Below are positions 16,225 through 42,253 of a stretch of DNA of 64,000 nucleotides, one piece after another. Source of the stretch: Sphaerochaeta associata (GTDB lineage Bacteria > Spirochaetota > Spirochaetia > Sphaerochaetales > Sphaerochaetaceae); the NCBI RefSeq assembly GCF_022869165.1, contig NZ_CP094929.1, positions 3,038,001 to 3,102,000 of the forward strand, written 5' to 3'. Made by a program: the position numbers and the translations under genes. The notes beneath the pieces were generated by a model, which saw only the letters and a program-made list of their open reading frames with translations, ran no database searches and was not told where the DNA came from. Position 1 is the stretch's first letter; every line of letters starts with the position of its first letter.

Positions 16225-17124
16225 ATGACTTATATTGATGCCCATGCCCATATTTTTGAACAGCTGTGCGGCTTTGGAGCCGACGGGGAATTGAGGGCTC
16301 TGCCCAATGGAAAGGCTGTCTGGGCCACCGGGGAGGTAATCGACCTCATCCCCGCTTCCTATGGTGACACCACCTTCCCTGCCGAGCGACTTCTGGGAAT
16401 AATGGACGCCCACCATGTCGAGAAGGCTGTACTGCTGCAGGGTGGTTTTCTAGGCTTTGCCAACCACTATCTCCAAGAAATAACAATGAAATACCCCACC
16501 CGCTTCAGAGCTGCCGCCACCTTCGACCCTTGGTGCCGTAACGCACAGAAGATCATGGACAACCTGCACAAGAGCTTTTCCATCTTCAAGTTCGAGATGT
16601 CCACCGGCTGCGGCATCATGGGAAGCCACCCCGACTTCGCCTTGGACAACAGTCTGATGATGGGTTTCTACGAGCAGATTGCAGCGAAGAAAGGAGTCCT
16701 GGTCTTCGACCTTGGAAGCCCGGGCGACGGTTCCCACCAGCCCAAGGCCATCAGCAACATTGCAAAGCACTTTCCTGCTCTTGAAGTGGTCGTCTGCCAT
16801 CTGGCGAGCCCCAGAAGGCATCACAAGATAGAGCTTACTGAAGCCCTCCAAACCATGAAAGCAGAGAATATACACTTCGACCTGGCAGCCCTGCACCACA
16901 AGGTGCGCCCTGAAGACTATCCCTTCCCGACTGCACAGGCGTTCATCAACTTGGCAAAGAGCATAGCAGGCTCAGAACACCTGATGTGGGGAACCGACGC
17001 CCCTTCAACTTTGGTGCAGTACAGCTACCAACAGCTGCTCGATTACCAGTTGGCTCTCTTCAGTGAAAAAGAGCAGGGCATGGTGTTTTGGGGGAATGCC
17101 GAACGTATATATTTCTTACGATAA
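16225..17124 (+). CDS. Amidohydrolase-2 family TIM-barrel hydrolase
   Basis: This 299-residue enzyme starts MTYIDAHAHIFEQL, 7 nt after GAGGAGG. It has the metal motif HAH at the N-terminus, a central His in VVVCHLASPRRHH, and the C-terminal catalytic Asp in LMWGTDAPSTL. The family includes hydrolases, lactonases and decarboxylases of small carboxylates and sugar lactones; the substrate is unknown. Its last 489 bp before the final 12 codons are repeated at 31380-31868. The C-terminus (VFWGNAERIYFLR) differs from the repeat, so this gene may itself be a recombinant. Confidence 0.88.
   Translation: MTYIDAHAHIFEQLCGFGADGELRALPNGKAVWATGEVIDLIPASYGDTTFPAERLLGIMDAHHVEKAVLLQGGFLGFANHYLQEITMKYPTRFRAAATFDPWCRNAQKIMDNLHKSFSIFKFEMSTGCGIMGSHPDFALDNSLMMGFYEQIAAKKGVLVFDLGSPGDGSHQPKAISNIAKHFPALEVVVCHLASPRRHHKIELTEALQTMKAENIHFDLAALHHKVRPEDYPFPTAQAFINLAKSIAGSEHLMWGTDAPSTLVQYSYQQLLDYQLALFSEKEQGMVFWGNAERIYFLR
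16601..17089 (+). repeat. 489-bp direct repeat, left copy
   Basis: This stretch matches 31380-31868 base for base without gaps (offset 14779) except for about a dozen substitutions, most at third codon positions. Similarity stops abruptly on both sides. It lies inside the intact amidohydrolase gene. Confidence 0.9.
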
Positions 17125-17220
17125 TTGCATTGTCTCAATACACTAAACTGTACACGATCTCTTCTGACCTTACCCAGCAGCTGTATCTTGTATTTTCAAT
17201 TTGTACCCGGCCTAGGTCTA

Positions 17221-17249
17221 TGCTAAACTAACAATTACTATTGCTAAAC
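17221..17249 (+). promoter_or_regulatory. 21-bp-spaced TGCTAAAC repeats before the second YesN gene
   Basis: TGCTAAAC occurs at 17221-17228 and 17242-17249, exactly 21 bp apart, ending about 20 bp before the start codon at 17269. This is the geometry of an AraC-type dimer site and suggests autoregulation. Confidence 0.45.
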
Positions 17250-17268
17250 CTTGATGCTGGATGGATTC

Positions 17269-18855
17269 ATGAAATTAAAAGTTATCATAGCTGACGATGA
17301 ACATAGAATATGCCAAATGCTTGCGAGATTCATTGATTGTGAGGCGCTGAACCTTGAAATTGTAGATATGGCTTCTGATGGGGAAGAGTTGCTGAGCAAA
17401 ATCAGAACAGAAAATCCAGATATCGTAATAACCGATATTTGCATGCCAAAAGAAAGTGGGATGGAGGTAATTCGTCAAGCAGTTCAAATGGGACTAACTT
17501 GTAAATTCATCATAATCAGCGGCTTTCGCCAATTTGATTATGCGTATACTGCGCTTAAATATGATGTTTCTGATTATTTACTCAAACCAGTAGACAAAAA
17601 CGAATTAAACACTGCATTAGGGAAGATTGCATGGCAGTTACGACATAAAAATGAGAGTATTCCCAGCGGTAAAGAACAGGACATACATCATTATTTCATT
17701 CTCAAAGGCGCAAAAAAACTTCTTGCAAAACCAGTTGCTCTGGGAGAACTCAATACAACATACAGAACCAATTTTCAAAAAGGCCTTTTTCAAGTAATTC
17801 TCATTCGCATCGATAGTATCGGGAAACCCCGTTCTATTCCAGAAAATCCAGCATCCATTCATCGTGAAGTCCAGAACAAAATTATTGGACATTTGTCTCC
17901 GTATTGTCATGATATTATTGCAACAAGAGAGTGGGATGATATCATTGCAATCCTCAATTATCCTGAACGGAATACTGAATCGCTACAATCAGTATTGTAT
18001 GAGTTGTTTTCCGTCGTCAAACGTAACGTTGAAATGTTTGGTGGAGTTACAGCCACTCTGTGTATCGGTAGTGCTTATGCGGACATCAATAAAATTGACA
18101 CATCAAAAACTGAAGCAACAGATGCTGCTTGGAAACGGATGGCATCAAAACTGGGAACCATCATCACTGCTGAGGCTCATGGATCCGAACACCAACCATC
18201 CCTCGAGCCTACACTACATGCATTGGAACAGCGAATCCAGAAAGCATTCGAGACTTTGAATATCAAAGAGTATTCGACGTGTATTGAGGAACTCTTCTCC
18301 TTCCCGTCGCAAGTAATCAGTAGCAGTGAGGTCAAGCACTTTGTCAGAAGCATCCCAGAACTTTTCTTTGAACAACATGAAAGTACACTCGCCGAGATGT
18401 ATACCATAGAGCACATTGCAAAGGAAATTAGATATGAACTGCGAATGGTTACATCGTTTACCACATGCCGTAGTACACTTATTCGAGTGTTGTCTGGTTT
18501 GATGGACGAAGTCCGTGACCATATGTATCAAAGAAACACAAAGCCAATTCGATTAGCTATGGATTTCGTAAAAAGCAAGTATGCCAATCCAATCACCCTC
18601 GACGATGTAGCTTCTGAAGTAGGCTTAAGCTCGGTCTATTTCTCCTCCATCTTCAAGAAGGAAACCAGCCAGAATTTCACTGATTTCTTGATGGAGTATC
18701 GTATGACTATTGCTAAGAATTTATTGAAAAGCAGCAATCTGAGTATTAAGGAAATCGCTCATGAGGTAAGCTTTTTAGACCCTAGATATTTCAGCAAAGT
18801 GTTTAAAAAGATTGTGGGGATTAAGCCGACAGACTATAAGAAAATCTACAGTTAG
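17269..18855 (+). CDS. YesN-type response regulator with long middle domain
   Basis: This 528-residue regulator has a receiver domain (KVIIADDEHRICQML, phospho-Asp in VITDICMP near residue 55, Lys in DYLLKPVD), about 280 residues of uncharacterised linker, and a C-terminal AraC HTH (VGLSSVYFSSIFKKETSQNF, then EVSFLDPRYFSKVFKK). It is twice the length of the other two YesN proteins here because of the middle region. It is first in a five-gene run with the kinase (9 nt downstream), pseudo-ATPase, binding lipoprotein and permease. Codon use is clearly AT-richer than in genes before 17.1 kb. The ATG at 17269 is preferred over a TTG at 17251. Confidence 0.9.
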   Translation: MKLKVIIADDEHRICQMLARFIDCEALNLEIVDMASDGEELLSKIRTENPDIVITDICMPKESGMEVIRQAVQMGLTCKFIIISGFRQFDYAYTALKYDVSDYLLKPVDKNELNTALGKIAWQLRHKNESIPSGKEQDIHHYFILKGAKKLLAKPVALGELNTTYRTNFQKGLFQVILIRIDSIGKPRSIPENPASIHREVQNKIIGHLSPYCHDIIATREWDDIIAILNYPERNTESLQSVLYELFSVVKRNVEMFGGVTATLCIGSAYADINKIDTSKTEATDAAWKRMASKLGTIITAEAHGSEHQPSLEPTLHALEQRIQKAFETLNIKEYSTCIEELFSFPSQVISSSEVKHFVRSIPELFFEQHESTLAEMYTIEHIAKEIRYELRMVTSFTTCRSTLIRVLSGLMDEVRDHMYQRNTKPIRLAMDFVKSKYANPITLDDVASEVGLSSVYFSSIFKKETSQNFTDFLMEYRMTIAKNLLKSSNLSIKEIAHEVSFLDPRYFSKVFKKIVGIKPTDYKKIYS

Positions 18856-18864
18856 GATGTTCTC

Positions 18865-19647
18865 TTGAAAAAATACCATATTATCAGCGAAGAGAAGTTG
18901 CATCGAATGATCGATGAGCGAGTCGCAAACCAAATTCTGGAAGCCAACAACAATCACGAACGTGAGTTGCTGATGAAACAAGCGAATATCAGATCTCTAC
19001 AAGCTCAAATCAATCCCCATTTTCTGTACAACGCTCTTGAGTGCATCCGTGCACAGGCAATAATCGATGGAGCAGAAGAAATCGCTTCAATCACAAAAGC
19101 CCTTTCACTTTTCTTTCGATACAATATCAGCATGAAAGGGAACCTGATCACCTTGCAGGATGAATTTGAAAATGTTCAGAACTACATGACTATCCAACAA
19201 TATCGGTACAAGGACCGCATGTCACTGGAAATTCGGTGTGATCAGCATGACGCAGAACTCATGGATATGCTCTTGCCAAAGCTTGTACTCCAACCGCTTG
19301 TGGAGAACTCAATCGTCCATGGGTTCCGTGACATGACAAGCGGAGCATACATCATTATTAGTGCTGAGAAGATTGCGAATCATACCAGTATCAAGGTAAT
19401 TGACAATGGAAAAGGGATGAGCATTGAAGAATTGAACGCCTTGCGTGATAAATTGAGGAACCAGGAATCCATCCTGCATGATACTCAGGATCAAAATGAG
19501 AATGGGATTGCTTTATTGAATGTGAATAGGAGAATCCAACTATTCTACGGTCAAGATTACAGCATGAATATTACCAGTTGCAAAGGTGAAGGAACCCAGA
19601 TTGAGCTCTTTCTCCCCCGCAATGAAATTTCAAATGCCTATGAGTAA
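18865..19647 (+). CDS. Soluble LytS/YesM-type histidine kinase without sensor domain
   Basis: This 260-residue protein has no membrane helix or sensor domain. A short charged helical lead-in (residues 1-45, probably coiled coil) is followed by the His_kinase motif SLQAQINPHFLYNALE (His near residue 52). The ATPase domain shows QPLVENSIVHGF, VIDNGKGMS and GIALLNVNRRIQLF. All catalytic boxes are intact. It starts with TTG 18865 after AGGATG, and its 3' end overlaps the ABC-ATPase-like gene. Family members are normally membrane proteins, so this kinase must get its signal from a partner; the adjacent transporter-like genes are the obvious candidates. Confidence 0.88.
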   Translation: MKKYHIISEEKLHRMIDERVANQILEANNNHERELLMKQANIRSLQAQINPHFLYNALECIRAQAIIDGAEEIASITKALSLFFRYNISMKGNLITLQDEFENVQNYMTIQQYRYKDRMSLEIRCDQHDAELMDMLLPKLVLQPLVENSIVHGFRDMTSGAYIIISAEKIANHTSIKVIDNGKGMSIEELNALRDKLRNQESILHDTQDQNENGIALLNVNRRIQLFYGQDYSMNITSCKGEGTQIELFLPRNEISNAYE

Positions 19648-21115
19648 TGAACTTTTTCGTGCAGTTAACATTAGTGTCGAGAAGAATAACCAACGGAAAT
19701 TAAGTCAAGTAAATTTCTCCCTTCATTCCGAGAAAGTACTAGGAATTTTTGGCTTATATGATTCCGGAAAGCGGACGATCCTAGATGCTATTACCGGTAA
19801 GGTCGCACTTGATAATGGGTTCTTCTTCGTACGAGGAAAAACCTATCACAAAGGCATGAATGAGTTCAACGAGTTAAAGCTTCAGCGTGTTTCCAATACA
19901 TCCTCACTGATTCAAGGCCTTTCCATTTGGGAGAATCTAGTTGTCCTCAAAAACCATGGATACCGACAAGTATTTCTTCATAAGACATTTATAATCAAAG
20001 AAGTTGAAGAATGCCTGCAAGCCTTCCTGCTGCCATTCAATCCTATTCAGCTTGTAAGTACACTCACCCCATTGCAACAGTTTTTCATCGAATTGCTTCG
20101 CTCCTATTTTCTTGGAACCCATATCATTCTAATCGACGATCTTTCACTTGAGCTATCGCGAGAGGAATTGGAATTACTCTCCCAGTTTATCAATCGACTG
20201 AAGAAGAGGGGGCTTGCCATTCTTGTGACAAGCAGAAAAGTAACAATATTAAAAGCTATTTCAGATACCATCGTTTTTCTCTCAACTGGTAGCATTGTGC
20301 ATGCACTTGAGAATGTTTCGCTGGTTTCTGTAGAGCGAATTGATTCCATTCTTATGAACATTTTCCCTGATAAACATAGTTTGAAGCATGTACCAATACA
20401 AAGAGATGCCATCGTCATTAGGGCAGACGGGATGCCTTTCGGCAATGACACGAGTTCGTTTGTATTGTATGAAGGAGAAGTTGTTGCATGCATAGATCCT
20501 TTCAAGATGGTTAGTGATGTGTTGGAAAAAACCATTACGGCTAGCGCTAAAAACAATCAATTCAGAGTACGGGGAAAGTTACAAAAGCATCTTGGATGGA
20601 GGGATAGAGTTGTATTCGTAAATTTCTCAGTTGAAGGAAAAACATTCCATAGCATTCCTCAGTTGCACAATCTTTGCTTTCCCCTGCTATCCCGTTTGAC
20701 TCGGTGTGGATTCTACTCACACCGATATGAAGCATTCGTTGCGAAAGACTTCTCAAAATGGGCACAGCAGGATATGAGTCCACTTTTAGCATCCCGCGTA
20801 AAGGAACTTACTAAACGAGACATTATTTCCATTATCTTGTACCGCCTTCACCTTGCCAACCCGGAAGCAATCTTTTGTCAAGATCCATGGAATGACACCG
20901 ATTACCTCTCAGGGAGGGCTATTTATCGTGAGCTCGAAACACAAGCACATAAGAATAAAAAAGCCGTTTGCTTTATTATTTCCAATATTGAGAACCTCGA
21001 TGATTTTGCCGACAGATATTTAGTCATTTCAAGAGATGGGACCCTATACGAAACAGCATTTGATGACATTAGAAAAACTGTATTTAAGTATGACCAAGCA
21101 GTAGATACTCTCTAG
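19640..21115 (+). CDS. Degenerate double ABC ATPase (RbsA-like, probably signalling)
   Basis: This 491-residue protein has the two-NBD layout of sugar ATPases such as RbsA/MglA, but almost every nucleotide motif is altered. NBD1: Walker A-like GLYDSGKRT (38-46); LTPLQQFFIELL where LSGGQ is expected; IILIDDLS instead of LLLDEP; LVTSRK without the switch His. NBD2: EGEVVACIDPFKMVSD with no P-loop; ELTKRDIISIIL for the signature; IFCQDPWND for Walker B. The fold seems kept while hydrolysis is probably lost. It overlaps the kinase gene by 8 nt, or more if ATG 19622 or 19634 is used. Cotranscription with a sensorless kinase suggests it couples receptor state to the kinase. Confidence 0.75.
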   Translation: MSNELFRAVNISVEKNNQRKLSQVNFSLHSEKVLGIFGLYDSGKRTILDAITGKVALDNGFFFVRGKTYHKGMNEFNELKLQRVSNTSSLIQGLSIWENLVVLKNHGYRQVFLHKTFIIKEVEECLQAFLLPFNPIQLVSTLTPLQQFFIELLRSYFLGTHIILIDDLSLELSREELELLSQFINRLKKRGLAILVTSRKVTILKAISDTIVFLSTGSIVHALENVSLVSVERIDSILMNIFPDKHSLKHVPIQRDAIVIRADGMPFGNDTSSFVLYEGEVVACIDPFKMVSDVLEKTITASAKNNQFRVRGKLQKHLGWRDRVVFVNFSVEGKTFHSIPQLHNLCFPLLSRLTRCGFYSHRYEAFVAKDFSKWAQQDMSPLLASRVKELTKRDIISIILYRLHLANPEAIFCQDPWNDTDYLSGRAIYRELETQAHKNKKAVCFIISNIENLDDFADRYLVISRDGTLYETAFDDIRKTVFKYDQAVDTL

Positions 21116-21127
21116 GAGGCCGGATTC

Positions 21128-22330
21128 GTGCGTAAAAATACCTTGCTGTATATACTCTATTTGCTCATGATTCTCTTAAGTTTCGGGTGCAGCAACAAAA
21201 AAGATGTACAAAAACCACTTGCTGGCTTAAGTCTGCTTACCAGTTCAGATTCTTTTGCATCGGAGATTGCTCAAACTTTTGAGAAAACTATGAATGATTA
21301 TGGCTTCCGGACGCAAATCCTATTTTGTGACAATAGCATTGAAACCCAGCAACGGCAAATTGCAAATTTCATTGCCAATAACGCAAAACTGATTTTTATC
21401 CATTGTGCGGGCGACGGGAACGACTACTGTGAAGTCTTTACTCGGGCAAGAAATAATGGCACCAAAGTGGTGGTGATTGCTCGCGACCTCCTTGATTGTA
21501 CTGATGTACAATCCGTTGGTGATAGTTTATTAAAAGGTGTAGCTAAAGCTGAAATGGTGAGCCAATTCTTGGATACAGCGTTTCCCGACGCTGCAGATGG
21601 TAGTGTAAACGTATTGCTTTTGGAACGTTTGACAAAAACTGGATATATCATGACTTCAGCAGGCATGAAATTACTACAAGAGAAATTTATCAGGCATTTT
21701 GATTACAAGAGTTTAGATTTCCAGAAGTATGAGATAGAAGCTGCAATTACTTACATTGACAACACCGGAGAAGAGTATGAGGTCGATGAGCCTGCCGGCG
21801 GATTAATGCTTGATGAAACTGGTCATGCGGTTCTAAATCCGTATTATGACTCGAGAATAAGGCTCTATTCTGCTGGCAACAAAGACATCCAAACCGTGTT
21901 GGAAGGGCAGGAAGCGGTTGATGAGTTCATTGCAAGGCCGGAAGGCTCAACGCTGCATATAGTCATGGCCTTTAGCGGAGATGCCGCCATCGGGGCAAAC
22001 CAGAGAATGATGCGCTATGTACGTGATGGTAAGATCCAAAGTGGGATTACCCAATTGGCTGTATTTGGATCAGATGATACAGAAGCGAACAGAGCTCTTT
22101 TACTTGAAAGCGGCCTCAATGAAAGTGTGTTTCGAGGTTTTGTTGGATATCGCAGTATTGCATGGGAGGTAGAAACTATGCTGAGAATGGCGATTGAACA
22201 AGAAGGGAGGCAGGTTTTGGAACTGGAAGTAACAAAAACAAGGTATGATGCCCAGGAACAAGTAATCAAGCAAGAAATAGGCTCGTATGATTTTCTGAAA
22301 AAGTATCAGCTATTTCAGAATTGGATCTAA
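21128..22330 (+). CDS. Solute-binding lipoprotein (periplasmic-binding type 1 family)
   Basis: This 400-residue protein starts at GTG 21128, 6 nt after AGGAGG, with the signal peptide RKNTLLYILYLLMILLS and lipobox FGC (Cys near 21). The mature part follows the sugar-binding PBP1 fold: AGLSLLTSSDSFASEIAQTF, a KLIFIHCAGDGNDY strand, GTKVVVIARD, and a second lobe with QLAVFGSDDTEANRAL. In AI-2/ribose-type proteins the GSDD-like loop contacts ligand. It sits between the pseudo-ATPase and the permease, so it is the ligand receptor of this unit. The ligand is unknown. Confidence 0.85.
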   Translation: MRKNTLLYILYLLMILLSFGCSNKKDVQKPLAGLSLLTSSDSFASEIAQTFEKTMNDYGFRTQILFCDNSIETQQRQIANFIANNAKLIFIHCAGDGNDYCEVFTRARNNGTKVVVIARDLLDCTDVQSVGDSLLKGVAKAEMVSQFLDTAFPDAADGSVNVLLLERLTKTGYIMTSAGMKLLQEKFIRHFDYKSLDFQKYEIEAAITYIDNTGEEYEVDEPAGGLMLDETGHAVLNPYYDSRIRLYSAGNKDIQTVLEGQEAVDEFIARPEGSTLHIVMAFSGDAAIGANQRMMRYVRDGKIQSGITQLAVFGSDDTEANRALLLESGLNESVFRGFVGYRSIAWEVETMLRMAIEQEGRQVLELEVTKTRYDAQEQVIKQEIGSYDFLKKYQLFQNWI

Positions 22331-22345
22331 TATAAAGGACTTTGT

Positions 22346-23338
22346 ATGATGGAAAGATTCAGTATCAGGCACCGGCTCTTTTTCAAATTTCTTAACCAAT
22401 ATGTTGTTGCTCTATTCCTTGGATCCCTCATAATTGGTTTTTCAATCATATCACATTCATTTCTTAACGCTGAAAACCTGCTCTTTTTAATTACTCATAA
22501 CTCCCCATTGATTATTATGGCAGTGGGACTTTCATTCATCATGGTAGGAGGAGGCATCGACCTGTCATTGGGATACCAAATTTCATTGTGCTCTGTAGTC
22601 ATGGGATATCTTCTTGCGAATGATGCTCACCCACTGGTAGCTATGGCGATGGCTGTTCTCACTGGTGTTGCATGCGGAGCATTGAATGCTGCAGTCATTA
22701 TCTCCCTAAATATTCCTCCATTTGCTGCCACACTGGCAACACAGTTTATCTTTCGTGCAGTAGCTAATACCATCTCGTCCGGCCGAGCTTATACACGTTT
22801 GCCACAGATCGGAAACTGGAATGTACTGAAACCGTTGCTTGGAATAACAACTCATACATGGATTGCTTTACTCTGTTTGCTTCTCTATGGCCTGATATTT
22901 TCACTGACCCCTTTTGGAACATATGTGAAGGCCTTGGGCGAGAATGAATCTGCTGTAAAACGTATCGGAATCAGGGTAAATAGAGTCAAATTTGTTTCCT
23001 ATATTATCGGGAGTTTCTTTTTTGCCATCCAAGCAATCATACTCACATTCCTGAACGGGGTGGCCAGCCCCTCGACAGGAATCGGCATGGAAATCATTGC
23101 CATCACTGTAGTATTTCTCGGATGTAATTCATTGCTAAGAAATGAAAGTACAAACATTATAAGTCCTATGTTTCACTTGGGATTAGGAGTGATGATCTTA
23201 GCCGTTCTAGAAAATGGTATGCTCTTGGCCGGCTGGAGTGTCAATGCACAATTACTGGTACGAGGCTTTGTCTTAATTTTTGCAATTACACTCTACTATC
23301 GACGCAAAATCAATCTACCTCATGCTGAAGACTCCTAA
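22346..23338 (+). CDS. RbsC-like ABC permease
   Basis: This 330-residue membrane protein has about eight to ten helices. It keeps the branched-chain/ribose permease hallmark IMVGGGIDLSLGYQIS and the cytoplasmic coupling region YVKALGENESAVKRIGIRV. The usual glycine-rich segment near the C-terminus is replaced by VFLGCNSLLRNESTN, which is unusual. It is the last gene of the five-gene run. The preserved coupling loop suggests it still contacts the degenerate ATPase. Confidence 0.85.
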   Translation: MMERFSIRHRLFFKFLNQYVVALFLGSLIIGFSIISHSFLNAENLLFLITHNSPLIIMAVGLSFIMVGGGIDLSLGYQISLCSVVMGYLLANDAHPLVAMAMAVLTGVACGALNAAVIISLNIPPFAATLATQFIFRAVANTISSGRAYTRLPQIGNWNVLKPLLGITTHTWIALLCLLLYGLIFSLTPFGTYVKALGENESAVKRIGIRVNRVKFVSYIIGSFFFAIQAIILTFLNGVASPSTGIGMEIIAITVVFLGCNSLLRNESTNIISPMFHLGLGVMILAVLENGMLLAGWSVNAQLLVRGFVLIFAITLYYRRKINLPHAEDS

Positions 23339-23507
23339 AAGCAAGAACACCTACTCCCTCTCTACCTAGAACTCTAAAAGACACATTAAGAGATTGCACG
23401 TATTATTGAAACCGTTGGCTTTACGGCTCCTTTTTACTGCAGCTTAATATAGGTAAAGATTCGCTTTTTGCTTCTCTGAAGCTTAAGTGAAACAAGGAGG
23501 ATTGATT

Positions 23508-24350
23508 GTGTTAACTGATTTACACCCAATGGTTCAATTCAAGCCTAATACTTGGGAAATTGATGAATTCGATTGTGCAAGTATTTTTCTGCTTGAGGGG
23601 AAAGAGAAGGCAATGCTCATAGACTGCGGAATGGGTATAGGAGATCTGCGTAGCGTCGTTCGAAAGATTACGCGAAAACCATTGGTAGTTGTCATTACCC
23701 ATGGACATATCGACCATACAGGAAACGCCAGGCAATTTGAAGAAATTTGGATCCACCCCAAGGATGCAGGACATCCTATTCCTCAAGATATTGAGCGCCG
23801 ACGTGATGATACAAGGCTCATCGCAGCCCGTCAGAAGAATATGTATCCCTATGATTTGTATGTTGATATCCGGGAACCTGGGCCGGACGAACCAATGCCC
23901 ATCATTCATCATCTTTACGATGGCCAAAAATTCGATCTTGGCGGACGTGTTATTACTGCCTACGAATGTCCTGGACATTCGGTCGGACAAATGATGTTCC
24001 TTGACGAGCAATCTCGTTCACTCTTCTGCGGTGATGCCCTTAACTACAATCTTGGTATGCGGGCAACCAGTATTGAGGTAGCAGTACAATCATTGGAACG
24101 AATTAGGGATTTAGGATCATACTATGATGGGATCTATAATGGGCACCATGATTTTAGAGCATTGGGGAAGCCTCTAGGTGATGATTGTCTTCCTACTGCA
24201 ATCGAGATTTGTCATGACTTGTTAGAAGGCACGGCAACACCAATAATGGTCCCAAGTTTCTGGGGTCCTGAACGGCCTGGTAGATTGATGGTTCAGAAAG
24301 GCAAGAACTATATCGCATTCGATCCAGACAATATTCATGAGAAAAAGTGA
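23508..24350 (+). CDS. Metallo-beta-lactamase-fold hydrolase
   Basis: This 280-residue protein starts at GTG 23508 with GGAGG 7 nt upstream. It carries the Zn motif VVITHGHIDHTG (HxHxDH), a later His in YECPGHSVGQM, the Asp in SLFCGDALNY and a final His in IYNGHHDF. The family hydrolyses thioesters, lactones or phosphodiesters; nothing here fixes the substrate. It stands 169 bp after the transporter-like genes and ends at a strong terminator. Confidence 0.88.
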   Translation: MLTDLHPMVQFKPNTWEIDEFDCASIFLLEGKEKAMLIDCGMGIGDLRSVVRKITRKPLVVVITHGHIDHTGNARQFEEIWIHPKDAGHPIPQDIERRRDDTRLIAARQKNMYPYDLYVDIREPGPDEPMPIIHHLYDGQKFDLGGRVITAYECPGHSVGQMMFLDEQSRSLFCGDALNYNLGMRATSIEVAVQSLERIRDLGSYYDGIYNGHHDFRALGKPLGDDCLPTAIEICHDLLEGTATPIMVPSFWGPERPGRLMVQKGKNYIAFDPDNIHEKK

Positions 24351-24368
24351 TTTGTAGCATACTATTAT

Positions 24369-24412
24369 GAGCTGTCGCCTAAGCCTTTCACTTTTGCGGC
24401 AGCTCTTTTTTT
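24369..24412 (+). terminator. Rho-independent terminator after the MBL hydrolase
   Basis: GAGCTGTCGC (24369-24378) pairs with GCGGCAGCTC (24396-24405) with one G-T pair and a 17-nt loop, followed by seven T. It separates the hydrolase from the convergent MFS gene. Confidence 0.85.
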
Positions 24413-24444
24413 ATGTTATTGATGATAGTATTGCAAAGAGCATG

Positions 24445-25608
24445 TCATGCATGCTTTTTTCTTTTATTCACAAGCACATAATATAGAATAGTTGCAATGA
24501 TCACAGGAATCGTCATCCCTAGGAACATGTTTTTATATCCTGCATAGGCAACGAAAAATCCAGCAATATTACTACCGATGAATACACCAACATCCACACC
24601 GATATAACTGGTATTGCTTGCACTTCCCCTTTTCTCTGATGGAGCGGATTTAACACATTCCGCCATTAAAATCGGTTGTTCACCAGCAAGAGCCAAACCC
24701 ATGAGAATGGATGCTATGATAAAGTATAAAACCGATTGAGCACTTGAAATTACCAACATGGCGACAATGATGCAAAGCTCGCAAGGAATTAAAACCTTCA
24801 ACGTTCCAAAGCGATCAGACAACCAAGATACCAATGGCCTGAAAGCAAAAACTGTGATTGCCTGGATAGTGAAATAGATACCGATATTCTCAATTCCCAT
24901 ATCAAGAGCATAAATTACCAAGAATGCATTGATGGACCCTTTTGTTACAGAATTACAGAGAATGACAGAAGCGGGAAGAATCGCAGGAAAATATACAATA
25001 TCCTTGAGTTTGATTGAGTACTTCCTTTTTTGAGGCGGTGTATATTCAATCTTCAAGAAGAACGTGAGAAGTAGACAGATTGTCATCAAGGCTACATTTA
25101 CATAATACAGATTGTTGTATCCAAACCGGTTTGCAAAGGGAAAAGCAAACATCGGAGCAACAGTACGTGCCAAAGTCTGCCCTATCCCATAGATTCCAAT
25201 ACCGGTAGCCATATTGGTTGCAGAGAAACAAGAAGAAGCGAGTGTCATCATCAACGTAGAACCAACGCCCCAAGCGAATCCGTTCAAGCCCCTGAATACA
25301 AGCAGCATCCAGTATTTGTCGGAAACGGTTAGCCCAAATAGGGAGACCAAGATTACGGATAGGCAAACCCGCAGCATAACCAGTTTATTCTCGTTATCCA
25401 CTATCTGACCAGAGAAGGGTCGCATCAACAGTGCACACATCGCGAAAATTCCCGCCAAGAGGCCAACAGCTTGAGCACTTGCTCCCAATTCATTTGCATA
25501 TTTCGGCAATGTTATTGATAGCATTGTGCTAGAGTTGTAATTAAAGAATGCAATGACCATGATCACTACAAACATTCTATTGAAAATTGTTCGATCTTTA
25601 GTTACCAT
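24445..25608 (-). CDS. Major facilitator superfamily transporter
   Basis: This 387-residue protein has twelve predicted helices. The N-terminal half carries the MFS motif A region (RPFSGQIVDNENKLVML) and the second half the matching segment RPLVSWLSDRFGTLKVL, which indicates a sugar or drug transporter of the bacterial MFS_1 type. ATG 25608 is used; GTG codons at 25638 and 25647 would extend the N-terminus. It has no operon partner. It lies between the MBL hydrolase and the peptide transporter within the AT-rich segment. The substrate is unknown. Confidence 0.88.
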   Translation of the reverse strand: MVTKDRTIFNRMFVVIMVIAFFNYNSSTMLSITLPKYANELGASAQAVGLLAGIFAMCALLMRPFSGQIVDNENKLVMLRVCLSVILVSLFGLTVSDKYWMLLVFRGLNGFAWGVGSTLMMTLASSCFSATNMATGIGIYGIGQTLARTVAPMFAFPFANRFGYNNLYYVNVALMTICLLLTFFLKIEYTPPQKRKYSIKLKDIVYFPAILPASVILCNSVTKGSINAFLVIYALDMGIENIGIYFTIQAITVFAFRPLVSWLSDRFGTLKVLIPCELCIIVAMLVISSAQSVLYFIIASILMGLALAGEQPILMAECVKSAPSEKRGSASNTSYIGVDVGVFIGSNIAGFFVAYAGYKNMFLGMTIPVIIATILYYVLVNKRKKHA

Positions 25609-25722
25609 TTTTCCGACCGATTGCTCTCTTACTTTCACGTTTCCCACCTATATACACTGGATACAATGAGATGCCCATGTATGAATAAATCGAGAATATC
25701 TTAAATTTTTAACACGCGCCGA

Positions 25723-26679
25723 TTATAATCCATTCAGCTCCCGTGCTCTGCAACAAGCACAGAAGTGTTTTGGGAGCAATTCTTCCAGTTTCTGTGGTTG
25801 ATGACATGCATCAACAGCGAACTTGCAGCGTTTGGCAAATCTACAACCAGGCTTGGGATTGATTGGAGATGTCAACTCCCCTTCAATAATTTCAAGTTCT
25901 TTCTGGTTATCAATATCAGTTGAAGGAATTGCTGAGAGTAAAGCTTTTGTATATGGATGCAACGGTGTATCAAACAATTCATTCACAGGGCTTGTCTCAA
26001 CCATTTGTCCTAAATACATAACGCAAATATTATCCGAAACGTGCCGAACGACGGACATGTTGTGAGTGACAAACATATACGTCAAATCGAACTCATCCTG
26101 TAAATCTTGTAAGAGGTTCAATATCTGGGCTTGGATAGAAACATCAAGAGAAGAAACAGGTTCGTCACAGACGATGAAATCCGGCTTCAGTGAAAGTGCT
26201 CTTCCGATACCTACTCGCTGACGCCTTCCACCATCCAATTCATGTGGATATGCCATCCGCAGTCTATTTTCTATGCCGACCAATTCCATAATCCTGTCGG
26301 TTTCTTTCTGCATTTCTGCCTTGGTCATACGTTCATAAAGTTTGAGAGGTTCCATTATCGTTGCCTCAACTGTCATCCTTGGGTTTAGGGACGAATAAGG
26401 ATCTTGGAATATAATTTGCATCTGGTGACGTAATTGCCTCAATTCATTACCCCTGACATTGGTAATATTCCTACCTTTATAGAACACATCGCCGCTTGTA
26501 CTGTCTAAAAGATGAATAATTGTTCTTCCTAAGGTAGATTTTCCACATCCTGATTCACCTACAACGCCGGTAGTTTTCCCTGCGTCAATCGAGAATGTCA
26601 CCCCATCAACAGCATGCAACAATCCACGACGGGAATTAAAATATTTACAAAGATTTTTTACCTCAACAACTGGTGCCAT
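25723..26679 (-). CDS. Oligopeptide ABC transporter ATPase (OppF/DppF type)
   Basis: This 318-residue ATPase has Walker A GVVGESGCGKSTLGR, the Q-loop IIFQDPYSSLNP, signature ELDGGRRQRVGIGRAL, Walker B FIVCDEPVSSLD, and a C-terminal oligopeptide/dipeptide domain with Cys residues (GCRFAKRCKFAVDAC). The signature variant DGGRRQR is known in a subset of this family. It overlaps the OppD-type gene by 17 nt and is last in the five-gene operon. Confidence 0.93.
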   Translation of the reverse strand: MAPVVEVKNLCKYFNSRRGLLHAVDGVTFSIDAGKTTGVVGESGCGKSTLGRTIIHLLDSTSGDVFYKGRNITNVRGNELRQLRHQMQIIFQDPYSSLNPRMTVEATIMEPLKLYERMTKAEMQKETDRIMELVGIENRLRMAYPHELDGGRRQRVGIGRALSLKPDFIVCDEPVSSLDVSIQAQILNLLQDLQDEFDLTYMFVTHNMSVVRHVSDNICVMYLGQMVETSPVNELFDTPLHPYTKALLSAIPSTDIDNQKELEIIEGELTSPINPKPGCRFAKRCKFAVDACHQPQKLEELLPKHFCACCRARELNGL

Positions 26680-27673
26680 TTGTGTGCTCCTTTTTACTCA
26701 TTTTTCCGATATTGATACATCGGCAAAGATGGTTCCCCTGGATGGGTAGCAGTGAGATTGACTGCTCGCTGCACTCTGGAGTGGCATAAGAGCAGCGAGG
26801 ATGGAATTTACATCCATAAGGAAGGTTTGAGGGATCGGGTGGTAGCCCTTTGATATTTGCTAGCCTGGATACATCCTCATTCAGTTTTGGGATGGCACCG
26901 AATAGCCCAAGCGTATAGGGATGTGAAGGCTTTCTGAAAATCTCTTCCTTCGACCCATACTCAATAATCTCCCCGGCATATATCACGGCAACGTAATCGC
27001 AAACTTGTGCAACAACACCCAGATCATGAGTGATAAGAATCATGGATGTCTCTTTTTCATTTTTCAGTTTGTTGATCATTCGTAAAACTTGGGCTTGGAT
27101 GGTTACATCCAAAGCAGTAGTTGGTTCATCTGCCAAGAGGACATCTGGGTTACAGGCAAGGGCCATTGCAATCACGACACGTTGCTTCATTCCGCCTGAA
27201 AACTGATGGGGATACTCAATATGTCGTTCTGCTGGGATTCCTACAGTTTCCAACATTTTAATCGCGACTTGGAGCGCCTCCTCATAGGATACTTTACTGT
27301 GAAGGGAGACTACTTCTGCAATTTGATCACCAACTTTCATAACAGGATTCAATGCTGTCATTGGATCTTGGAAAACCATACTGATACGTTCTCCTCGTAT
27401 CTGCCTCATTTCCTCCTCATCCAATTCAAACAAGTTTGTTCCTTCCAACATGACCTTTCCTGATATGATTTTTGCAGAAATATCAGGGAGTATTCGCATA
27501 AGTGCTTTTGCAATAGTGGTTTTTCCCGCACCAGTCTCTCCAACCAATCCAAGCGTCTTTCCTCGATACAAATCGAATGAAACGTTGTTTACTGCGTGGA
27601 TGACAGCTCCATCGGAGGTATAGTCCACTATTAAATCACGAACAGACAGATAAGCCTTATCATGTGTTTGCAT
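26663..27673 (-). CDS. Oligopeptide ABC transporter ATPase (OppD/DppD type)
   Basis: This 336-residue ATPase starts [18 protein letters not shown]. It has Walker [17 protein letters not shown]-loop [12 protein letters not shown], signature [15 protein letters not shown], Walker [13 protein letters not shown] and a C-terminal Cys-containing domain ([15 protein letters not shown]). All catalytic motifs are intact. It works with the OppF-type subunit to drive uptake through the two DppB/C-type permeases. Confidence 0.93.
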
Positions 27674-27687
27674 CGTACTAATTCCTT

Positions 27688-28536
27688 CTAATTCTTAAGT
27701 TTCGGGTCACAAGCATCTCGAAGGCCATCTCCGAACATATTTAGGCCAAGAACTGTAATTGCAATGAACAGCCCTGGGAAAATCACCAGATGTGGGTAGT
27801 CGCGTATATAAGCCCTTCCTGCTGAAAGCATGGCTCCCCATTCAGGAGTCGGAGGTTGGACTCCAAGGCCAACGAAACTCAAGGAAGCTGCAATCAGCAT
27901 AGTATTTGCAATCCACATGGTTGCTGAAACAATCAAAGGGGCCATGGCATTGGGCAATACATGCACAAAGATTATCCGATATCGTTTTGCTCCGATTGCC
28001 TCGGCAGCCTCAAGATACTCCATTTTTCGGATATTCATGATTGCGGCTCGCAGAATTCTCGCAAATGAGGGAATTTGAGCTAAACCGATAGCAAGCACCG
28101 TCTTGTCAAATCCCGATCCAAACGCTGAAGAGATGGCTATTGTTAACAGGATACCTGGTACAGATTGAATTATATCCAATAGTCGCATAATAATATTATC
28201 GATTTTTCCTCCGAAATACCCGGCTATAGATCCTACAACCATACTGATGGACAACGCTACAACTACTGATGATATTCCAATACTCAGTGAGTATCTTCCC
28301 CCATACAGAATTCGACTTAAGACATCTCGTCCCAGGTCGTCGGTACCGAAGGGATGTTCCCATGAGGGTCCTTCCAACATAGCACTCGGATTCATCTCGA
28401 AGTACGAGTACTTCATAATGAATGGAGATACCAAGGATAGGAAAATTAAGATGACAAATAAAGCAAGTCCAAACATGGCGGCCTTATTCTTCATCAAGCG
28501 CTTGATGATTGCTTTTGAATTGCTATTTCTAGACAT
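27688..28536 (-). CDS. Peptide ABC transporter permease (DppC type)
   Basis: This 282-residue permease starts MSRNSNSKAIIKRLMKN after AAGGAGAAAG. It has the N-terminal OppC_N helix (AAMFGLALFVILIFLSLV), the HPFGTDDLGRDVLSRIL motif and the EAA loop YLEAAEAIGAKRYRIIF. It overlaps the DppB-type gene by 8 nt. Confidence 0.93.
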   Translation of the reverse strand: MSRNSNSKAIIKRLMKNKAAMFGLALFVILIFLSLVSPFIMKYSYFEMNPSAMLEGPSWEHPFGTDDLGRDVLSRILYGGRYSLSIGISSVVVALSISMVVGSIAGYFGGKIDNIIMRLLDIIQSVPGILLTIAISSAFGSGFDKTVLAIGLAQIPSFARILRAAIMNIRKMEYLEAAEAIGAKRYRIIFVHVLPNAMAPLIVSATMWIANTMLIAASLSFVGLGVQPPTPEWGAMLSAGRAYIRDYPHLVIFPGLFIAITVLGLNMFGDGLRDACDPKLKN

Positions 28537-29485
28537 GCTTCTTTCTCCTTGCAACACCCTCGTACTGAGCTTTGATTCTGGGGTCGATAAAAGCGTACAA
28601 AATATCAACGAGAAGGATTATGAAGCAGAAACTGACTGCCAGAAGAATAACGGACCCTTGGACTACCAAGTAATCGCGTTGATTGATAGCAGTTACCATA
28701 TAGGACCCTATTCCAGGCATAGAAAATACATTTTCGATAATTACGGTTCCACCGAGAGATCTACCAAAATTGCTTCCGGCAACTGTTACAATTGGTATTA
28801 ATGCATTAGGCAGCGCGTGCTTATAAATTACCTTGTTTTTGGTCTGTCCTTTAGCATGAGCTGTAACGATATAATCCGAGCGAATGACTTCAAGCATACT
28901 AGATCTGCTTTGTCTTGCAAGCATGGCCAATTGTCCTAGCGAGTTTGCAATTGCGGGAAGAATGAAATATTGAATTCCCCCAATTCCATAAGCCGGCAGC
29001 CAACCTAGTTTCAATGAGAATAGCAATACCAGCATCAAACCCAGCCAAAATGCAGGTATGGATACACCAGCAAGTGCAATCAGCATGCTGATTCTGTCAC
29101 CCCATTTGTTTTGATGTACCGCCGCATTCACACCAAGGGGAACACCACCAGCCACGGAAATAAGCATGCAAAGCACTGCAAGAGTAAAAGTATAAGGCAT
29201 ACGTCGAACCAATTCGGTGGTGATACTATTATGAGTTATATATGATTCACCAAAATCAAACCGCAAGAATACATTTGCAAGATATTCAACTAATCTAGTA
29301 AGAAATGGCTCATTGAATCCCAATTTCTCTCGTAATAGGTTTAATTCCAATTCGGTTGCATCAGAACCCAGGATGATAGCTGCAGGGTCTCCTGGGACGA
29401 AATACATAAGCGAGAAAATAAATATCGCGACACCCAGAATTACTGGAATCATCCAGAGTATTCGCTTGATAATATACCTAATCAT
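28529..29485 (-). CDS. Peptide ABC transporter permease (DppB type)
   Basis: This 318-residue permease starts MIRYIIKRILWMIPVIL after AGGAGAAAAAGG. It shows the family motif YFVPGDPA and the EAA-type loop DYIVTAHAKGQTKNKVIYKH. Six membrane segments are predicted. A 145-bp spacer with two hairpins separates it from the upstream binding-protein gene. Confidence 0.93.
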   Translation of the reverse strand: MIRYIIKRILWMIPVILGVAIFIFSLMYFVPGDPAAIILGSDATELELNLLREKLGFNEPFLTRLVEYLANVFLRFDFGESYITHNSITTELVRRMPYTFTLAVLCMLISVAGGVPLGVNAAVHQNKWGDRISMLIALAGVSIPAFWLGLMLVLLFSLKLGWLPAYGIGGIQYFILPAIANSLGQLAMLARQSRSSMLEVIRSDYIVTAHAKGQTKNKVIYKHALPNALIPIVTVAGSNFGRSLGGTVIIENVFSMPGIGSYMVTAINQRDYLVVQGSVILLAVSFCFIILLVDILYAFIDPRIKAQYEGVARRKKHV

Positions 29486-29520
29486 CCTTTTTCTCCTGAT
29501 TACACGTGCCTTCAAGAAAT

Positions 29521-29603
29521 GAGGATGTGGAGACAAGTATTGTACAGCTTTACCACATCCTCTTATTCGGGATGGGAGACAACCCAGAGTTATCATCCCA
29601 TCC
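29521..29603 (-). promoter_or_regulatory. Two intercistronic hairpins after the peptide-binding-protein gene
   Basis: The first stem pairs GAGGATGTGG (29521-29530) with CCACATCCTC (29553-29562), 10 bp. The second pairs GGATGGGA (29570-29577) with TCCCATCC (29596-29603). Both lie between the binding-protein and permease genes and could limit transcription of the permease part or stabilise the binding-protein mRNA. Confidence 0.6.
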
Positions 29604-29630
29604 ATACAAAGCTATTACGTAATGAGTCAA

Positions 29631-31220
29631 TCAATATTTGGCATTGAATTCTGTATTTGCAGGTGCTGGATAGCATTTTGCATCATAGGTGAGCGTCTCT
29701 ATCCCATCACGACCAACCATGAATGTTATATGAGAGAACAGGCCCATAGCATATGCTTGCTCTTTCATGTAATAATGAAGGTTGTCGACGTCAGTGGTTG
29801 AATGTCCATCGAGGGCGTTAGCACGGTCTACATACTTCTGCAACGTTTCATCTTTAACACCATTGGTCGTACCATTCGAATATTGGCGGGAATCAAACTT
29901 TGCGCGGTACATGGAGACCAGATAATCTGAAGCTCCTGTATTATCCAGCATGATATCCCATTCATATTTGTCTTTGGTATCAATCTTATAGTTGTTGAAT
30001 AATGCTTGGTCGTACTGAAGAATGGTTGCTTTGATGCCGGTTGCCATCAAATATCCTTGGATCATTTGAGCAACTTTATTCCTTATGGGAGTATTGTCAG
30101 TCATTATACGCAGAGTCAGCTCGTTCGGCTTATACCCAGCTTCAGCAAGCAGTGCTTTAGCCTTTACAGGATCATAGTCATTGTAGTCTTCATTCTCCCA
30201 TTTTGGGTTGAAATCCGGGAATTGATTACTACCAAAATCCTTCAAAGGCGCACCATATCCACTAACAGCTCCCTTTACCAGCCCCTGCTTATCGATCGAG
30301 CGAAGAACAGCCATTCTGAGAGGAAGGTTATTGTAGAATACAGAGTCGGTATCAAGGTTTAAATACATCTGATTGGTGATGTTTGATGCATTTTGGAATA
30401 CCGTATAAGCCTTATTATCCATGAATCGTTGGGCATCGATATTTGACATATTGACGGCCAAATCAATTGTTTTAGTCTCAAGAGCTATGGCCATCTGGGC
30501 GGATTCTTTGATGATCTTGTACTCAATCACATCAGGATTTGCTGCCTGCAACGTAGCCAGTTTTGAAGCATCTTTTTGCCAATGATTATTTGTTTTTCTA
30601 AATCTTACTACAGAACCAGGAACATACTTCTCCAATTCATAACCGGTAGTCCCGATTGGTGTGGTAGCCATTCCATCCTTGCTGGCTTCAAAAGCCTTCT
30701 TGGAAACAATTCTACAAGAGGCAATAACCTTATTCAGGCCGCCTACGAAGTTTGAATTAAGCTTCAGACGGATGGTGTAATCACTGACTTTTTCAAAGGA
30801 ATCGATGTAACGCATATTCCCGCTTCCACCCATTTCCTTCATTTTTGCGATGCTGAAAATTACATCGTCGGCATTAATATGATTACCGGCAGTATCATGT
30901 ACGTAGTCATAGATGGTTACTTCGTATACCAGAGGAGCGACCTCTTTATACTCTTTCATAATGTAACCTTCCAAAACACCTCCTACCTCAGAGAGCTCTC
31001 CCAAGTATTCGTATAATGTGTAGGAAATAGTTGCAAAACCAGAACCACTCTTCACAAAGGGAGCCAATGTTCCCGGATCTGCATCAATTCCAACTCTTAG
31101 CACAATCTCCTTGGGACCGGCATCCTGTGCGGTAGAGGGCGCTTCTGCATTTCCTCCTGCCCACACATTGGTCACGAGCAACAATGTTACCAAGATTGCT
31201 AAAATTCTCCTCATTTTCAT
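29631..31220 (-). CDS. Peptide/nickel ABC transporter solute-binding protein (DppA/OppA type)
   Basis: This 529-residue family-5 binding protein has the signal peptide MKMRRILAILVTLLLVTNVWA and a spirochaete-like GGNAEAPS start of the mature chain. It follows the family pattern EIVLRVGIDADPGTLAPF, then VYEVTIYDYVHDTAGNHINA. The start at 31220 follows AAGGAGTGTCT. It is first in the operon with two permeases and two ATPases. Peptides are the likely ligands, but family-5 proteins also bind oligosaccharides. Confidence 0.93.
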   Translation of the reverse strand: MKMRRILAILVTLLLVTNVWAGGNAEAPSTAQDAGPKEIVLRVGIDADPGTLAPFVKSGSGFATISYTLYEYLGELSEVGGVLEGYIMKEYKEVAPLVYEVTIYDYVHDTAGNHINADDVIFSIAKMKEMGGSGNMRYIDSFEKVSDYTIRLKLNSNFVGGLNKVIASCRIVSKKAFEASKDGMATTPIGTTGYELEKYVPGSVVRFRKTNNHWQKDASKLATLQAANPDVIEYKIIKESAQMAIALETKTIDLAVNMSNIDAQRFMDNKAYTVFQNASNITNQMYLNLDTDSVFYNNLPLRMAVLRSIDKQGLVKGAVSGYGAPLKDFGSNQFPDFNPKWENEDYNDYDPVKAKALLAEAGYKPNELTLRIMTDNTPIRNKVAQMIQGYLMATGIKATILQYDQALFNNYKIDTKDKYEWDIMLDNTGASDYLVSMYRAKFDSRQYSNGTTNGVKDETLQKYVDRANALDGHSTTDVDNLHYYMKEQAYAMGLFSHITFMVGRDGIETLTYDAKCYPAPANTEFNAKY

Positions 31221-31369
31221 AGACACTCCTTTTGAAAATTTCTTTTGTGTATTCAGCACTTCATCTAAACACTATGTGGTGCAGATATCGCCGTAAAGCA
31301 CATGAAATCAAGAAAAGGTGGAATATCTAAATACGCCTCTACGGGTTATAGGAACTTCTCAAAGGATAG

Positions 31370-31900
31370 TTTTTCGAAGCCACCGGCTGCGGCATTATGG
31401 GAAGCCACCCCGACTTTGCCTTGGACAACAGTCTGATGATGGGTTTCTACGAGCAGATTGCAGCAAAGAAGGGAGTCCTGGTCTTCGACCTGGGAAGCCC
31501 GGGCGACGGTTCCCACCAGCCCAAGGCCATCAGCAACATTGCAAAGCAATTTCCTGCTCTTGAAGTGGTCGTCTGCCATCTGGCGAGCCCCAGAAGGCAT
31601 CACAAGATAGAGCTTACTGAAGCCCTCCAAACCATGAAAGCAGAGAACATACACTTCGACCTGGCAGCCCTGCACCACAAGGTGCGCCCTGAAGACTATC
31701 CCTTCCCAACCGCACAGGCGTTCATCAACTTGGCAAAGAACATAGCAGGCTCAGAACACCTGATGTGGGGAACCGATGCCCCTTCAACTTTGGTGCAGTA
31801 CAGCTACCAACAGCTGCTCGATTACCAGTTGGCTCTCTTCAGTGAAAAAGAGCAGAAAATGGTGTTTCATGACAATGCACAGCGGCTGTATTTTTCATGA
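31370..31900 (+). pseudogene. 5'-truncated copy of the amidohydrolase gene
   Basis: The frame is open from 31370 to TGA 31898-31900 and matches residues about 126 to the end of the protein at 16225. The N-terminal HxH metal site is missing, and an in-frame TAG lies just before 31370, so the product would be inactive. The C-terminus here is VFHDNAQRLYFS, unlike VFWGNAERIYFLR in the left copy. Most differences are synonymous, so both copies were under selection before truncation, or the copies exchanged sequence. Confidence 0.85.
31380..31868 (+). repeat. 489-bp direct repeat, right copy
   Basis: This is the partner of 16601-17089. The two copies frame the AT-rich 17.1-31.4 kb segment in direct orientation, so homologous recombination between them would delete 14,779 bp as a circle and leave one gene copy. 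Confidence 0.9.
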
Positions 31901-38136: not shown

Positions 38137-38709
38137 CTAATCAGTGCAGACATCAACTTTAGAAAGGCTACCTTCAAAATATACCGGAATCTTCGGTAGG
38201 TTGGTTGAAAAATATACAGACAGTGCACAGGCCTCACGATAGTGGCTATGCTTAATTGCCAGATTGTTGCTTGCTTCCCACCATCTCTCATCAATTGGGG
38301 TTTGCAGGAGTTTTTGTATTACTTTATCTTTTGGCACCCAAACCGGAGCCAGTTTGAGAGCAATTTCTTCCTTAACCAATTGCAAGGGAAGATCTTGTGC
38401 CTTGACATCAACAACAAAGTACTCATTTCGAAACCACCCATTCCCATACTTCTCTTCTATCGAACAAAGCCAACGGTTTACTTCTACCACCATTCCCAAT
38501 TCTTCTAGGCACTCGCGAACGACACAGGCTTGTAATGATTCACCCAAATCGATTCTTCCTCCTGGCAACAAGTACTGGCTTCTTTTTGTTAGGCAAGAAA
38601 ACAGAATGCAATTATCCTGCTCAATGATTGCTCGACAACCAGCGCTGATTGCAGGAATGATTGTTTGATCTTGCTGAGAGACTTCGCTTCCTAGAAGTTG
38701 AATTTTCAT
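38137..38709 (-). CDS. NUDIX hydrolase
   Basis: This 190-residue protein has the full Nudix box GGRIDLGESLQACVVRECLE followed by ELGM, with all catalytic Glu residues. The substrate is a nucleoside diphosphate linked to another group, not further resolvable. Its start overlaps the stop of the serine hydrolase gene by 4 nt, so it ends the amino-sugar operon. Confidence 0.88.
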   Translation of the reverse strand: MKIQLLGSEVSQQDQTIIPAISAGCRAIIEQDNCILFSCLTKRSQYLLPGGRIDLGESLQACVVRECLEELGMVVEVNRWLCSIEEKYGNGWFRNEYFVVDVKAQDLPLQLVKEEIALKLAPVWVPKDKVIQKLLQTPIDERWWEASNNLAIKHSHYREACALSVYFSTNLPKIPVYFEGSLSKVDVCTD

Positions 38710-39794
38710 ACTCCCCTCTCTAACTTGGATGTTTCATCAAATGCAAATGCGAGTGAATGGAACTTCTCCCTCAAAGGAAGAAGCGTTGTATTGTGACGAG
38801 TAGGATGGACACGATTGGTCAATAGTATAGCAGCCATTTTTTTTGATTGTGATATCCACAATGATGTCCCGGTAAATCCGGTATGGCCATAATTTCCTAT
38901 TCCTGCATTCTCACTTGCAGGGGTAGCTCCACGACTCCCTAATAAAAATCCAATACCTCTTGCTGTTTCCAAATTATAGGTATAGTCCGTTGAGAATTCT
39001 CTAACCCGTTCATGAGATATAAAGTTCCCCCGTTGACCGCAACCATCACGCAACAGCATCTGACAAAACCGTACAGTATCGCCCAAGCTTGAAAATACGC
39101 CTGCATTTCCAGCCACTCCGCCTAGAAATCTTGCATTTTCATCATGTACAGTACCAACAATCACTTTTTGCAAAGTTTTATCAAATTCAGTTGCTACAAT
39201 AGTATTCTCACCATATCCTGCTTGCAATGGATTAAATACTGTGTGATCCATGCCAAGAGGAGCAAACACCAAATCTCTTGCTATACTATCCAAAGGAGCT
39301 CCAACTATACGCTCCAGAATTTTCCCTAATACAATAAAACCGAAACAACTATACTCGTACTTGGTGCCTGGAGAAGCGATAGGTTGTGTTCCAAGGATAT
39401 AATCCAACGTTTCATCTGGCTGGCCTACCACAGCGTCTAATCGTTGCTCGGCAACAAATCCTGCAGTATGCGTAAGCAACTGTCTAATCGTGGCGCATCT
39501 GTAATTTCCAGAACTTTCGAGATAATGCTGGAGGGGTGTATCGTATTTCAACTGCCCTGAATCACACAAAACACTGCTAATCATTGTAGTGGCCAGCACT
39601 TTCGTTAAGGATGCAACATCAAACAAAGCACTCTCCGTCATGAGAATTTGTTTAGGGATGCGCTGTTTCAAACCACCAATATACGTAAAAAGCACCTTAT
39701 CTTCAGAACAAACTGCTGCCGCAAGGCCTGGACAGACTCCATCATCCATGAGTTTGCCTAAAAACGCTTTTAGCTTATCCTCGTTCGATTCCAT
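38706..39794 (-). CDS. Serine hydrolase of the beta-lactamase/PBP4-like family
   Basis: This 362-residue protein has S-x-x-K in VASLTKVLAT, Y-S-C in YEYSCFGFIVLG and H-T-G in NYGHTGFTGTS, the three class-C-like catalytic motifs. No signal peptide is present from ATG 39794, and a longer frame from 39878 does not add one. A cytoplasmic member in a MurNAc operon resembles esterase/amidase-type relatives used in muropeptide breakdown. The substrate is inferred. Confidence 0.82.
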   Translation of the reverse strand: MESNEDKLKAFLGKLMDDGVCPGLAAAVCSEDKVLFTYIGGLKQRIPKQILMTESALFDVASLTKVLATTMISSVLCDSGQLKYDTPLQHYLESSGNYRCATIRQLLTHTAGFVAEQRLDAVVGQPDETLDYILGTQPIASPGTKYEYSCFGFIVLGKILERIVGAPLDSIARDLVFAPLGMDHTVFNPLQAGYGENTIVATEFDKTLQKVIVGTVHDENARFLGGVAGNAGVFSSLGDTVRFCQMLLRDGCGQRGNFISHERVREFSTDYTYNLETARGIGFLLGSRGATPASENAGIGNYGHTGFTGTSLWISQSKKMAAILLTNRVHPTRHNTTLLPLREKFHSLAFAFDETSKLERGV

Positions 39795-39825
39795 AGGGTT
39801 TTCTCGAGTGATCCTCAGAGTATCT

Positions 39826-40431: not shown

Positions 40432-40442
40432 AAGAAACCACC

Positions 40443-41297: not shown

Positions 41298-41306
41298 GTA
41301 TTACCT

Positions 41307-42203: not shown

Positions 42204-42232
42204 TCATAGTTCCTCATTGAATGTACAAAATA

Positions 42233-42253
42233 AGGGCGGTATAAAACCGCCCT
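42233..42253 (-). promoter_or_regulatory. Intercistronic hairpin after the binding-protein gene
   Basis: AGGGCGGT (42233-42240) and ACCGCCCT (42246-42253) form a perfect, GC-rich 8-bp stem with a 5-nt loop. On the transcribed strand it is followed by TATTTTG, so partial termination is possible. Confidence 0.65.

Follow-up and report, generated by a model that had tools for sequence, protein, structure and literature searches.

A catalytically degenerate ABC ATPase family paired with LytS/YesM-type histidine kinases, and its divergent, horizontally acquired copy in Sphaerochaeta associata

How a histidine kinase with neither a membrane segment nor a sensor domain could receive its signal is the question raised by a five-gene locus of Sphaerochaeta associata. 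The locus lies in the window, i.e. the whole stretch of 64,000 nucleotides that was analysed, and all positions for this species refer to it. The adjacency of five same-strand genes described in the first-pass annotation was confirmed, as all five reading frames are open, on the plus strand and tightly packed (Table 1). The regulator and kinase genes are 9 nt apart, the kinase and ABC genes overlap by 8 nt, and the gaps between the ABC and binding protein genes and between the binding protein and permease genes are 12 and 15 nt, respectively. The start codon of the regulator is likely the ATG at 17269; a TTG is present upstream at 17251. The dead ABC protein coded beside the kinase gene is designated here as pABC.

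Table 1 Features of the S. associata locus and their positions in the window.
Feature	Position	Strand	Basis and remarks
Acquired island, ~14.3 kb	17088..31379		Low GC, flanking duplication, absence in sister genomes
Direct repeat TGCTAAAC, two exact copies (8-bp), 21 bp apart	17221..17249	+	20-48 bp before the regulator start
YesN-type response regulator, 528 aa	17269..18855	+	Pfam Response_reg and AraC HTH; weak GGDEF-like middle
LytS/YesM-type histidine kinase, 260 aa	18865..19647	+	Pfam His_kinase and HATPase_c; no TM helix, no sensor domain
pABC, twin-cassette ABC protein, catalytic motifs lost, 491 aa	19640..21115	+	Pfam ABC_tran, motif table
Solute-binding lipoprotein, 400 aa	21128..22330	+	Peripla_BP_4; remote ChvE/4ys6 similarity in the first lobe
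RbsC-like permease, 8 predicted TM helices	22346..23338	+	BPD_transp_2

The third gene had been read as a double ABC ATPase with most of its catalytic motifs lost, and the motif table bore this out. In the first nucleotide-binding domain (NBD1), Walker A reads GLYDSGKRT (Ser to Arg), Walker B reads IDD (Glu to Asp), the H-loop His is changed to Arg, the signature is LTPLQ, and the Q-loop Gln is lost. In NBD2, Walker A and the signature are unrecognisable and Walker B reads QD. Readable ABC paralogues in the same genome retain GENGAGK[ST], and one paralogous ATPase is sister in the tree to an ATPase from a record named Spirochaeta, in agreement with the phylum Spirochaetota. CUT2 importer ATPases (RbsA/MglA) by definition have catalytic motifs in the first cassette if not in both, and these are lacking here; the Pfam ABC_tran match is weak and confined to the first half, and NCBIfam models of CUT2 ATPases gave about 75 bits or less versus cut-offs of 586-850. 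The AlphaFold model (pLDDT 76.5) keeps the twin ABC cassette fold, and its fine details are unreliable because the underlying alignment held only intact ATPases.

The kinase is also as first described, with zero predicted TM segments and no sensor domain, while its His, N and G boxes are present. Its AlphaFold model (mean pLDDT 80) consists of one long N-terminal helix joined directly to the His domain, followed by the catalytic domain. It is distinct from the intramembrane-sensing kinases, which have two TM helices and hardly any extracellular part. A LytS/YesM-type kinase of 289 aa without TM helices was also observed in another genome of the family (L132, 6895-7764, minus strand), followed by a 454-aa protein, with the further context cut off by the end of the contig.

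Relatives of the locus were found by searching with the kinase and with a pABC profile. Among 139 genomes of the family, the kinase search returned 13 other genomes with frames of ~330-380 aa and 40-46% identity, clearly above the rest. The order of their operons is regulator, kinase, pABC, intact MglA-type ATPase, permease and binding protein, and their kinases have two TM helices and no sensor domain, although a few contigs end early. Of 393 genomes of the phylum, 8 matched the pABC profile at E <=1e-120 (next best ~1e-62), adding 3 genomes from two further families within the class; of 398 genomes of the phylum of Lachnospiraceae, 6 matched at E <=1e-142 (next best 9e-66). These additional genomes also have the six-gene operon. 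In total, pABC operons are present in 22 other genomes of Spirochaetota and Bacillota (13 of the family, 3 of other families in the same class, and 6 of Bacillota) in a partial sampling of 1996 counted genomes, some of which were searched more than once. The operon ATPase of genome G881 was assigned as intact by HMM score. In one otherwise typical six-gene operon (genome G081), a reverse-strand frame of 434 aa (L119, 4680-5984, minus strand) lies between the regulator and kinase genes (~2 kb). No pABC reached the threshold in 121 genomes of Chloroflexota, the phylum of an Anaerolineaceae record, and plasmids gave only matches of ~25% identity or less, the annotated ones being sugar-importer ATPases. 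Two sets of ~340 and 180 Bacillota genomes, searched for kinases of the S. associata type, contained only six-gene-operon kinases and ordinary YesM-type kinases. The exact five-gene order of S. associata occurred in no other genome searched, so the idea that this order is a conserved unit was not upheld; it is a single instance.

What is conserved is the pairing of a dead ABC protein with the kinase. An orthologous kinase adjoins pABC in every locus read, and a CUT2 permease and binding protein lie 3' of pABC in every complete operon read. All 18 aligned pABCs lack the first-cassette Walker B Asp, the H-loop His, both signatures and the second Walker A, and the Walker A Lys and Ser are kept in only 4/18 and 1/18, respectively. 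The intact ATPases of the six-gene operons retain the catalytic motifs that the pABCs lost. New residues are fixed in their place: the Glu of the NBD2 Walker B is replaced by Gln in 17 of the 18 sequences and by Asn in the other, HH is found in the H-loop region of all 18, and the pABCs share 81% and 88% identity in the former H-loop regions, which match the intact consensus by only 26% and 1%. To judge from these sequences, pABC would not hydrolyse ATP. The family forms one clade in the tree (support 99), and dN/dS in three close pairs is 0.06, 0.22 and 0.05, which shows purifying selection and is comparable to the values for the kinase and regulator. The kinase-pABC junction is a 4-nt overlap in 8/14 operons, whereas 61-279 nt lie between pABC and the intact ATPase gene in 13/14. 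Mean identities divide the operon into fast genes (pABC 38%, kinase 48%, regulator 35%) and slow genes (ATPase 69%, permease 76%, binding protein 70%). The distances of kinase and pABC are correlated at 0.92, and the partial correlation after removal of the transporter genes is 0.75; shared ancestry accounts for part of this correlation. The motif loss, the conserved new motifs, the low dN/dS, the gene overlap and the co-variation together indicate that pABC is most likely a signalling subunit and not a decayed pump part. The check suggested in the first-pass annotation, on conserved motif loss and kinase linkage, therefore came out positive for a monophyletic family, and since its members are linked to the kinase in every locus read, the ATPase is plausibly a signalling part.

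The S. associata protein is a divergent relative of this family. Its gene directly follows those for an orthologous LytS/YesM-type kinase and a YesN-type regulator, and the protein is closer in sequence to the pABCs than to intact ATPases: with HMMs built without the S. associata sequence, it scored 134 bits with the pABC model versus 67 bits with the intact-ATPase model. It groups with the pABCs in the tree (support 97) on a very long branch (6.1), a length at which clustering with other divergent sequences might be artefactual. Its identity to other pABCs is only 15-19%, and the replacement motifs of the family (HH in the H-loop, QPF at Walker B2, and SxSD) are absent, reading TSRKVTI, QDPW and IISNIEN; it is for this reason not a typical member. 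The S. associata kinase is sister to all pABC-operon kinases (SH-aLRT 96). An AU test gave p 0.045 against a kinase clade defined without L140, itself an operon kinase (genome G486), and the clade including L140 is present in the tree with support of 96. The best 20 non-self matches of the regulator, all from the loci fetched, are full-length pABC-operon regulators (E 1e-78 to 1e-48), and the best other regulator follows behind all 20 at 5e-44. Because the kinase, regulator and ABC protein each match the pABC-operon family, the locus is related to it in its first three genes.

We propose, with a probability of roughly 0.5, that pABC is the pseudo-ATPase of a two-component system and conveys the state of the permease and binding protein to the kinase. 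The protein would be derived from a CUT2 (RbsA/MglA-type) importer ATPase, having kept the twin-cassette fold and given up ATP hydrolysis. From its ancestry, fold and gene linkage, pABC would most likely dock on the permease as an importer ATPase does. It would then pass the state of the binding protein and permease to the kinase, with both the kinase contact and the direction of the signal being presumptive, and the kinase would phosphorylate the YesN-type regulator. In the relatives, pABC may serve as a sensing branch beside a working importer that has its own intact ATPase. It is rather unlikely that pABC is instead a cytoplasmic kinase regulator acting off the permease, with the S. associata lipoprotein and permease forming an importer that merely shares the operon. 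The strongest links of pABC are indeed to the kinase gene and not to the transporter genes, and the relatives' kinases, with their own membrane helices, might sense the permease without an intermediary, in the manner of BceS (PMC10314905). Against this, a CUT2 permease and binding protein accompany pABC in the complete operons, and the permease-facing segment of the cassette is slightly better conserved than the majority of segments (identity of 0.33 with the intact consensus), although a few others reach similar scores.

In S. associata, the kinase helices, a dedicated ATPase in the operon and a close relative of the binding protein in the phylum are all missing. A search of 393 genomes of the phylum gave no homologue of this binding protein at E<=1e-12, and there were no relatives among plasmids; both the binding protein and the permease nevertheless look intact. 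The loss of the kinase helices and the missing dedicated ATPase make a receptor the simplest reading of the complex, with a single sequence as the basis. The binding protein, permease and pABC would most likely act as the receptor themselves, and the soluble kinase may be held at the membrane through pABC. We suggest this only tentatively: the lipoprotein, permease and dead ATPase may constitute a non-importing receptor that signals to a soluble kinase without a membrane segment. The first-pass proposal of a transporter-shaped receptor without transport is thus possible for the S. associata copy, one sequence, and does not extend to the relatives, which have a two-TM kinase and an intact ATPase wherever the contigs are long enough. 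The S. associata permease keeps the coupling-loop consensus ALGxNxxAxxxxGI, as do other RbsC-type permeases, so that an ATPase borrowed from elsewhere might still drive it. In that case the complex would be an ordinary importer driven by an intact ATPase coded elsewhere, and pABC would only tune it. At least 15 other CUT2-type ATPases in the genome are in line with this, as is the ATPase sharing known for some CUT1 importers. We regard such borrowing as quite improbable, as the CUT2 ATPases lie beside their own permeases in the 20 regions inspected; no orphan intact ATPase stood out in these regions, in a few of which the ATPase was hidden by the choice of reading frame.

The receptor reading had been set apart from known transporter-coupled kinases on the grounds that these use membrane kinases and active transporters. 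This contrast was incomplete, since the Pst-PhoU-PhoR system is a precedent with a dedicated adaptor and a complex of BceS and BceAB is known. PstSCAB-PhoU-PhoR is similar to the pABC operons in that a binding-protein-dependent importer signals to a kinase via a dedicated cytoplasmic protein. The adaptor PhoU is unrelated to ATPases, unlike pABC; PhoR has its own membrane and PAS domains, and PstB is active. PhoU links the Pst importer to PhoR (PMC4423584). In the Bce-type modules (BceAB-BceRS), as proposed here, an ABC transporter does the sensing for a kinase that has no sensor domain itself, and BceS forms a complex with BceAB in which the cytoplasmic part of BceS moves with BceA (PMC10314905). 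The two precedents show that coupling of a transporter to a kinase is possible. The Bce-type modules differ in that their ATPase is active and its cycling is the signal, that BceS has membrane helices, that the transporter and kinase belong to other families, and that no binding protein gene is included. They are characterised by a BceB-type permease with a large extracellular loop and an active ATPase, whereas the S. associata locus has a BPD_transp_2 permease and an ATPase with lost motifs. XylFII-LytS-YesN and CuaDSR likewise combine a sugar-type binding lipoprotein with a LytS/YesM-type kinase and a YesN-type regulator. In these systems the binding protein makes contact with an extracellular domain of the kinase (PMC10384115), which is absent from the kinases described here; that of S. 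associata starts with a helix and lacks TM segments. The CUT2 importers (RbsABC, MglBAC) share the ancestry of pABC, permease and binding protein, but pABC is without catalytic motifs and travels with regulatory genes.

The pABC operons are probably a variant of transporter-coupled two-component systems, and no description of them was found in the open-access literature. Known couplings of ABC transporters to kinases mostly depend on active pumps. In a dead ATPase family paired with a kinase in two phyla, sensing and pumping would lie on separate paralogues, which makes the kinase readout of transporter state directly testable. Going by the names of the best family models, pABCs would be labelled sugar ABC transporter ATP-binding proteins and hence be hidden.

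The S. associata copy is a horizontally acquired, stripped-down version of the pABC system. The GC content of the island is 0.39-0.44 (near 0.42) versus about 0.53 outside. On its two sides lies the 3' portion of an Amidohydro_2 gene as a direct duplication (16601-17087 and 31380-31900, 98% over 300 nt). The sister genome G091 has matches on both sides of the island and lacks the island itself; in the sister genome G101, the amidohydrolase gene continues unbroken into the post-island sequence, and the contig ends soon after. The island location, the long branch of the ABC protein, its loss of the family motifs and the single instance of the gene order would all suit a locus in decay, i.e. a remnant of a six-gene operon whose kinase helices and ATPase were lost after transfer. 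This is improbable given five full-length open frames with tight junctions and the intact kinase His, N and G boxes, receiver and permease helices. The S. associata binding protein and permease are also not closest to those of the six-gene operons, which argues against a simple deletion. Besides the five genes, the island codes for an MBL-fold hydrolase, an MFS protein and a five-gene Opp/Dpp importer (23487-31259), which are possible targets of the island regulator. The direct repeat upstream of the regulator gene may, weakly, be a candidate operator to judge from its sequence: a spacing-matched 7-mer repeat occurred in 1% of shuffles of this upstream region, and the operons of the relatives have no counterpart of the repeat. 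A second low-GC stretch of the window (38137-46458, GC 0.38-0.46) codes for a predicted secreted protein and membrane proteins and is perhaps another acquired segment.
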